Source of the DNA: Photorhabdus asymbiotica
Lineage (GTDB): Bacteria > Pseudomonadota > Gammaproteobacteria > Enterobacterales > Enterobacteriaceae
Direction of reading: 5' to 3'
Length of the DNA stretch: 64,000 bases
NCBI RefSeq assembly: GCF_003634575.1
Contig: NZ_RBLJ01000002.1
Location: forward strand, 372,001-436,000
Below the pieces are notes generated by a model. It had not been told where the DNA came from, made no database searches, and saw only the letters and a program-made list of their open reading frames with translations. The translations under genes and the position numbers were made by a program. Of this stretch, positions 21,882-22,857 are shown piece after piece. The first letter of the stretch is position 1. Each line of letters begins with the position of its first letter.

Positions 21882-22088
21882 ATGGGCATTGTGAAAATCT
21901 CTGATGAACTACACGAAGAAATCAGAAAAGCGAGTAATGTAATGTCTCGTTCAATCAACTCTCAAGCTGAGTTCTGGATAAAAATAGGGATGCTAGCAGA
22001 ATTAAATCCTAACTTGACGTTTAGTGAAATAATTCAGCAGCAATTCAAAAAAGAAAATATGTTATTATCTGGAGTGTATAGTGAATAA
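21882..22088 (+). CDS. ParD-like antitoxin-family small protein
   Basis: The start at 21882 (MGIVKISDELHEEIRKAS) gives 68 residues; the open frame extends back into ERIC 4b but without a plausible start. The N terminus reads as a ribbon-helix-helix (VKISDELHEEIRKASNVMSRSINSQAEFWIKIG), typical of ParD-like antitoxins. It overlaps the start of the aminopeptidase gene by 8 bases, so the two are translationally coupled. I recall ParD-like genes beside extra methionine aminopeptidases in other genomes; a toxin-antitoxin role for this pair is not established. Confidence 0.75.
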   Translation: MGIVKISDELHEEIRKASNVMSRSINSQAEFWIKIGMLAELNPNLTFSEIIQQQFKKENMLLSGVYSE

Positions 22089-22857
22089 TATTTATATAAA
22101 AACTCCCACCGAAATAGAATTAATGAGGCAATCGGGCAAACTACTTGCACAAGTTTTTAAGATGCTTGATCAATTTATTAAACCTGGGATTACTACGATG
22201 GATATTAACGATAAAGCAGAGGATTTTATTGTTAATGTTTTAAGTGCTCGTCCTGCAAGCAAAGGACAATATGGCTATCAATATGTATTAAACACTTCAA
22301 TAAATGAAGTTGTTTGTCATGGCATTCCTAATAGAAATTATAGAATTAAAAACAGCGATATTATTAACGTAGACATCACATTGGAAAAAAACGGTTTTAT
22401 TGCCGACTCAAGTAAAATGTATCTGTTCTCCGCAGCGCCATTGCCAGCCAAAAATTTAGTAAAAACAACTTATGCTGCTATGTGGGAAGGTATCAAAGTG
22501 GTGAAGCCAGGCGCACATTTAGGTGATGTAGGCCATGCAATTCAGAATCACGCTGAACGGGCAGGTTATAGTGTTGTGCGCGAATATTGTGGTCACGGAA
22601 TTGGACGAGAAATGCATGAAAGTCCACAAGTTTTACATTATGGCCACCGTGATACCGGCTTAATGCTAAAAGAAGGTATGACTTTTACTATTGAACCTAT
22701 GATTAATCAAGGTTCCGCAAAAATCAAAACGAAAAAAGATGGCTGGACAGTCGTGACTAGAGATAAAAAACTGTCTGCTCAATGGGAACATACCATTCTG
22801 GTGACAAACAACGGATATGAAGTACTCACGATCAGAGATGAAGAGTTAGCCGTTTAA
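22081..22857 (+). CDS. Type I methionine aminopeptidase, accessory copy
   Basis: The enzyme removes N-terminal methionine from proteins. The GTG start at 22081 gives 258 residues (E. coli Map: 264). All five metal ligands are present: Asp98, Asp109, His172, Glu205 and Glu236, each offset by one from E. coli; His80 also matches. It is therefore probably active. The essential map normally sits beside rpsB, which is not here, so this is likely a second copy. Overlap with the ParD-like gene suggests a functional pair. The N-terminal half is AT-rich. Family certain; accessory status inferred. Confidence 0.88.
   Translation: MNNIYIKTPTEIELMRQSGKLLAQVFKMLDQFIKPGITTMDINDKAEDFIVNVLSARPASKGQYGYQYVLNTSINEVVCHGIPNRNYRIKNSDIINVDITLEKNGFIADSSKMYLFSAAPLPAKNLVKTTYAAMWEGIKVVKPGAHLGDVGHAIQNHAERAGYSVVREYCGHGIGREMHESPQVLHYGHRDTGLMLKEGMTFTIEPMINQGSAKIKTKKDGWTVVTRDKKLSAQWEHTILVTNNGYEVLTIRDEELAV

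Follow-up and report, generated by a model that had tools for sequence, protein, structure and literature searches.

Why should a protein of an antitoxin family be encoded just in front of a methionine aminopeptidase (MetAP), by genes that share 8 bases? The question is raised by a locus of Photorhabdus asymbiotica that lies within a stretch of 64,000 nucleotides, the whole of which is called the window below (Table 1). An initial annotation had proposed two answers: a toxin-antitoxin module in which MetAP is the toxin, or a self-regulated spare MetAP.

Table 1 Features of the locus and its surroundings (positions in the window)
Feature	Position	Strand	Description
HicB-like antitoxin gene	17647-18123	-	PF15919
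Short ORF beside the HicB-like gene	18120-18269	-	Weak HicA match, PF07927 28.1 bits, barely above cut-off
VgrG-type gene-like pieces	18412-19487	-	Weak TIGR01646 and TIGR03361 matches in ORF 18601-19194
Sulfatase-fold gene	20036-21577		513 aa; resembles phosphoethanolamine transferase CptA, below curated cut-offs
Two tandem copies of 125-bp interspersed repeat	21584..21833	+	Runs into first operator unit
Predicted sigma-70 promoter	21818..21846	+	Best candidate: -35 TTGAAA 21818-21823, 17-bp spacer, -10 TAATAT 21841-21846
Candidate operator array	21831..21871	.	Four YRTATAYR-like units in 11-bp steps, starts 21831, 21842, 21853, 21864
ParD-like gene	21882..22088	+	68 aa, MGIVKIS type; PF11903 86.2 bits (cut-off 23); predicted ribbon-helix-helix autorepressor
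map2, accessory type I MetAP gene	22081..22857	+	GTG start, 258 aa; TIGR00500 296.7 bits (cut-off 171.35)

The basic description of the pair given by the initial annotation proved correct. The profile scores of Table 1 agree with a 68-residue ParD-like ORF that overlaps a complete MetAP, and the latter is catalytically intact as claimed, in that it retains the metal-site and catalytic residues D97, D108, H171, E204, E235, H79 and H178 (E. coli numbering). It also lies away from the housekeeping map position, which is occupied by a second MetAP on contig C3 (48% identity to that of the pair) in the rpsB-map-glnD setting found in E. coli. As the genome has these two genes, map2 as the sole map gene is ruled out; a third MetAP match was weak (20% identity, E 5.6e-4). 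The ParD-like protein was the single PF11903 protein found by profile search of the genome. The closest named relative of the locus (L069) is from Photorhabdus heterorhabditis, and there too the CptA-like sulfatase-fold gene seen just 5' of the pair in the window adjoins the pair.

The initial annotation had suggested a survey of PF11903 proteins adjacent to accessory MetAPs, and this adjacency is conserved in Alpha- and Gammaproteobacteria. The ParD-like proteins of the window type begin with MGI, and in 109 of the 110 MGI-type loci examined a MetAP gene adjoins, with a MetAP remnant in the remaining one (L162). The 110 loci comprise 26 from the same family, one from the genus, 80 that were the best of at least 557 relatives and three from the class. 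In the 149 genomes of the family PF11903 was found in 39 (44 matches, all inspected as loci); the 26 MGI-type loci were all beside a MetAP, whereas each of the 18 loci of a sister type had a ParE-like toxin gene as its neighbor and no MetAP. Nine of the 12 genomes of the genus contained PF11903, accounting for the window locus, one further pair (L048, possibly of the same species as L069) and seven sister-type loci, six with toxin. All 80 of the best relatives had a MetAP neighbor, although these had been chosen by subfamily peptide patterns, keeping those nearest in similarity, and hence are no sample of PF11903 overall. The two genes were on the same strand in 74 of these and divergent, head to head, in six, all from Rhodobacterales (L101, L106, L120, L133, L135 and L146). 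The 185 genomes of the class gave 42 PF11903 matches including that of the window, and of the other 41 we inspected 29 as loci: two of three MGI-type loci had a MetAP and the third (L162) a 39-residue MetAP remnant, 19 of 24 sister-type loci had a ParE-like toxin and L189 matched neither.

Taken over all sets, a ParE-like toxin adjoins 43 of 49 sister-type genes. The toxins were identified by a Pfam scan of three representatives (PF15781) followed by tblastn with those three, and the same tblastn queries gave no match in the MetAP-linked loci. Judged by aligned starts, the two genes of the MetAP-linked pair overlap in 65 of the 74 tandem loci of the best-80 set and in 23 of the 26 family loci. 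All 27 pair-bearing genomes searched hold at least two MetAPs, which makes the paired enzyme accessory. The pairing is far beyond chance. The statement of the initial annotation that antitoxin-like proteins seldom have essential-type enzymes as partners may hold in general, but for this PF11903 subfamily such a partner is the rule. Since public annotations already show the two genes side by side, the pairing in itself was not hidden.

The initial annotation had also raised binding of the small protein to the upstream DNA, and the sequences point to a conserved site for it there. Self-complementary 8-bp YRTATAYR units with an 11-bp period lie just 5' of the ParD-like gene in almost all loci. 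The best pair of units at 11-bp spacing scored at least 15 of 16 positions in 95 of 107 upstream regions, compared with 0.54% of shuffles, although the 107 regions include near relatives and the rows are thus not independent. The other 12 regions gave pair scores of 12 to 14, and three of the 107 had no two adjacent units by chain count. Perfect units were most often spaced at 11 bp (50 cases), followed by spacings of 2 and 22 bp (8 cases each). The four units of the window score 7, 7, 8 and 7 of 8 positions, three of them thus carrying one mismatch, and a possible fifth unit at 21875 (7/8) reaches into the start codon; operator pairs were scored at 21842-21860 and 21853-21871 and the exact triple is absent there. 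Upstream of 25 sister-type genes the best score was no more than 13 of 16, as it was at five MetAP loci that have no ParD-like gene, and in the genus 12 housekeeping map genes gave at most 12 of 16 within 150 bp and at most 13 within 1.5 kb. A perfect operator pair accompanies the ParD-like gene of L162 (1501-1857), where the MetAP is reduced to its remnant. Spacing of one helical turn per unit would suit ribbon-helix-helix dimers lying on one face of the DNA; the operator half-sites of Arc are also about one turn apart. We regard the array as a new element that is probably bound by the ParD-like protein.

A sigma-70-like candidate promoter was found in 74 of the 102 regions that scored at least 14, and in 52 of the 74 its -10 box overlaps the array. 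The commonest place of the -10 box, seen in 23 regions, is one fixed offset within the first operator repeat (+2 from the first TATA). In the window the -35 box of the predicted promoter is provided by the end of the 125-bp repeat. This repeat has ten further places besides the two tandem copies, the window contains 12 matches to its end sequence (at most three mismatches) and the two copies fold well as a single strand (z -4.9).

The operator also gave a means of searching for the pair without use of the protein sequences. A blind query for the exact triple in 398 genomes of the phylum matched 27 genomes versus two for the reversed control, and 23 of the 27 loci proved to be the gene pair (three of these in the already known genomes G146, G035 and G041). 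The four misses were L330, L331, L337 and L344, one of which lies roughly 0.9 kb from a MetAP. A second set consisted of 36 pair-bearing genomes, the 27 of the accessory-MetAP check plus nine of the family. With one mismatch allowed, the triple was found in 30 of the 36, each time at the pair, and was lacking in six; away from any pair there were three sites (2.3 to 2.8 kb around each was read) versus five for the reversed control. One extra triple site, in G356 (the Methylomonas koyamae genome that harbors L092), turned out to belong to a second ParD-like-MetAP pair. This second pair (L315 307-1352, G356:C10), found by the operator alone, adjoins a phage-integrase gene. In the P. asymbiotica genome the operator pair with one mismatch has 12 places versus 22 for the reversed control, and overlapping operator pairs occur only at the locus of the pair itself. 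A wider regulon is unsupported, as off-pair sites are no commoner than those of the reversed pattern. The one perfect pair of that genome lies elsewhere, outside any array (L149, G000:C3:145462-145480), and may be either a chance match or a second site.

The putative binding protein was examined by modeling. PF11903 matched in all 44 aligned relatives. In the AlphaFold2 model residues 1-7 have no assigned structure and helices span residues 8-20 and 25-41; an earlier model made from a narrower alignment gave no hairpin. Over about residues 1-42 the fold matches Arc, CopG, the PutA N-terminal domain and omega with low to middling Z scores (4.1 to 5.3). The ribbon-helix-helix superfamily, which includes Arc and CopG, is defined by a short N-terminal strand followed by two helices, and the small protein is predicted to belong to it. 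Searched against solved structures by sequence, the small protein gave a sole, unrelated match (E = 0.93), and 17 other ribbon-helix-helix Pfam families gave none at a loose E-value.

How uniform are the MetAPs that accompany this protein? Relative to the E. coli enzyme the window MetAP has six pocket changes (C59S, Y62Q, H63Y, C70N, H106I and F177M). The 109 linked MetAP rows, in which the window locus stands three times (L001, L158 and L159) and from which three short pieces were left out, have mostly the same residues: S59 (88 rows), Q62, Y63 and N70 (89 each), I106 (88) and M177 (87). The matching columns of 40 unlinked rows are mostly P or C, Y, H, C, H and F. The usual C70 and Y62 are retained in the partners from Enterobacterales and Rhodobacterales (19 rows). 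In a tree of 80 rows picked from a larger set, the linked MetAPs fall in three places, an N70 clade, an Enterobacterales C70 clade and a Rhodobacterales set within the alphaproteobacterial MetAPs, with weak deep forks between the three groups. The AU test rejected as single clades the N70 plus Rhodobacterales proteins (p 0.0003), the Enterobacterales plus Rhodobacterales proteins (p 1.5e-5) and all three (p 0.0001); the N70 plus Enterobacterales proteins were not rejected (p 0.061). In a 42-row tree of the small proteins, built from a short alignment, the Rhodobacterales proteins sit among those of the N70 loci, as if the MetAP had been swapped while the regulator and its operator stayed; L007 (N70) falls elsewhere, and a single clade of N70-linked ParD-like proteins was not rejected (p 0.066). 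Given these two p values, recruitment of two MetAP lineages is firm and that of a third probable.

The reading that we favor is that the pair is probably an autorepressed operon of a back-up MetAP. ParD-like dimers, of a family established by profile match and of predicted fold, would bind the 11-bp YRTATAYR array one per helical turn. In about half of the loci the array covers the predicted -10 box, and occupancy would thereby keep transcription of both the ParD-like gene and the overlapping map2 low. In some shortage or stress repression would be relieved and the spare MetAP would rise beside the housekeeping enzyme. In this subfamily MetAP would have taken the place of the toxin and the antitoxin part would have become a dedicated regulator. 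Of the two proposals of the initial annotation, it is the self-regulated spare MetAP that draws support at the sequence level, from conserved adjacency, the operator and a second MetAP in 27 of 27 genomes.

What signal might relieve repression? One possible though rather unlikely answer is that the repressor senses methionine-excision capacity directly, through removal of its own first residue. Met-Gly is a favored MetAP substrate, and Gly2 is present in 109 of the 110 MetAP-linked ParD-like proteins (the exception, L072, starts Met-Glu). Thirty-five of the 110 miss the first search pattern, so Gly2 was not picked by the pattern, and 34 of these 35 have it, as do the proteins of all 23 loci found by the operator alone. 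The aligned start codon is ATG, TTG or GTG in 108 of 110, ATA in L048 and TAT in L101; the nearby ATG of the latter is out of frame, so that L101 may have a different start or be a damaged gene. Met1 aligns gap-free with the first ribbon position of Arc, CopG and PutA, presumably their first base-contacting residue. If the repressor were such a sensor, ample MetAP would cut Met1 and the trimmed ribbon would bind the array, whereas with MetAP short or inhibited Met1 or formyl-Met1 would be retained, binding would fail and the spare MetAP would be made, closing the loop. The output could be a MetAP of any lineage, and the re-pairing would thereby be explained. The idea is weakened because residue 2 is also small in the sister toxin-linked group (A in 28, S in 8, G in 6 and T in 5 of 47). 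If true, the initial residue of the protein would act as a gauge of how much capacity a co-translational enzyme has.

The operon could instead be a true type II toxin-antitoxin system, in which MetAP, in excess or in altered form, acts as the toxin and is bound and inhibited by the ParD-like protein. PF11903 is an antitoxin family with a sister subfamily beside PF15781 toxins, the distribution of the pair is patchy (island and plasmid) and one genome keeps the ParD-like gene with only a MetAP remnant, as if the toxin had been lost first. The overlapping order with the antitoxin-like gene first is typical of toxin-antitoxin operons, of which autorepression is also a property. However, we judge such a system unlikely, and the claim that MetAP is the toxin is not supported. 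The metal and catalytic columns are ordinary in all linked rows that have letters there (107 or 108 per column), the partners come from at least two MetAP lineages and six of the 80 loci are divergent. The tail, by which antitoxins grip their toxins, is the variable part (1.74 bits of conservation versus 2.42 in the sister group), whereas the DNA-binding half is better conserved (3.44 versus 2.99 bits). The partner is a TIGR00500 MetAP, with no ParE-like or PADLOC match, and overexpression of MetAP in E. coli is routine and is not known to kill. A known defence system is unsupported as well, as neither protein matches a PADLOC model.

Alternatively, the spare MetAP might have a changed specificity or inhibitor tolerance, with the neighboring regulator sensing an outside compound or a metal. 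The altered pocket of the N70 clade would fit this, as would H11 of the ParD-like protein, which is conserved in all 36 non-redundant rows. The partners that retain C70 and Y62 speak against it, since an altered pocket is then not what the regulator needs, and we consider this explanation quite unlikely.

That the genes merely travel together on mobile DNA with no functional link is highly improbable: the segment is indeed absent between rnk and pmbA in ten other genomes of the genus and the pair is found on plasmids, but chance adjacency is hard to reconcile with pairing across two classes, the other MetAP lineage and orientation in Rhodobacterales and a conserved, common operator.

The distribution of the pair was followed in the genus and beyond. 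The pair is in two of the 12 genus genomes (G000 and G150), adjoining pmbA, whereas in the other ten the end of rnk is directly beside pmbA (genes named by NCBIfam), rnk being complete in eight of them and reduced in two to its last 15 codons, which adjoin other DNA. Thus, the segment carrying the pair was inserted, or cleanly lost. This extra segment also carries the HicB-like gene and the short ORF beside it (Table 1). One of the ten genomes that lack the pair (G158) has a 55-residue MetAP remnant (L068 1504-1668) at another chromosomal place, beside sequence that by eye is transposase-like. The small protein matched 169 and the MetAP 238 (E <=1e-40) of 72,556 plasmid records, some few of them of chromosome length; a ParD-like gene was named under the match in 28 of 60 MetAP plasmid rows among the matches listed, and the two plasmid regions read both have the pair. 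In complete E. coli genomes 80% coverage of the DNA of the pair was reached nowhere, and of 5217 rows the 20 that were listed fall on map. The small protein had no match in 50,697 phage records and the PHROG matches were weak and to families of unknown function, so phage origin is unsupported.

How does the pair compare with known systems? The PF11903/PF15781 ParD_like systems share with it one Pfam family, a similar protein size and a place as first of two operon genes. They differ in that here MetAP replaces the toxin and the TATA-rich 11-bp array is absent 5' of the 25 sister genes; in addition the MGI start contrasts with MA, MS or MT in most sister proteins and the tail is less conserved. 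In most of the alignment the MGI-type N-terminus is one residue shorter than that of the sister type. The likeness to Arc, CopG, PutA and omega is one of fold, whereas the target here would be MetAP and the ribbon starts at the initiator methionine itself. MetAP is a drug target, and Vibrio MetAPs of the Asn-pocket and inserted kinds are reportedly inhibited by ovalicin. As for spare enzymes, the available part of one paper (PMC1266368) describes the single MetAP of E. coli and that of Salmonella as essential, and Bacillus subtilis YflG as a second, non-essential and weakly expressed MetAP beside the essential one, in an operon with yflH and with the GntR-family protein YvoA as a possible weak repressor. 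Unlike the present pair, YflG has no ribbon-helix-helix partner mentioned in that part of the paper. Searches of the open-licence literature gave no paper with a title or opening lines on a spare MetAP with an antitoxin-type repressor and none on MetAP1n, and three papers that name PF11903. Within the scope of these titles and opening lines, the generality of the pairing, the operator and the interpretation appear new.

The operator provides a ready test for a regulon, and the subfamily would be a case of an antitoxin family turned probable regulator; annotation of such proteins as ParD-like antitoxins can distort counts of toxin-antitoxin systems. PF11903 may have a third kind of partner. The class locus L187 scored as the linked type; it starts MSASVKLS, has no MetAP and was left out of the MGI count. 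There (1492-1900) a divergent PF11903 protein is followed by an ORF that by eye resembles a PIN-domain toxin.
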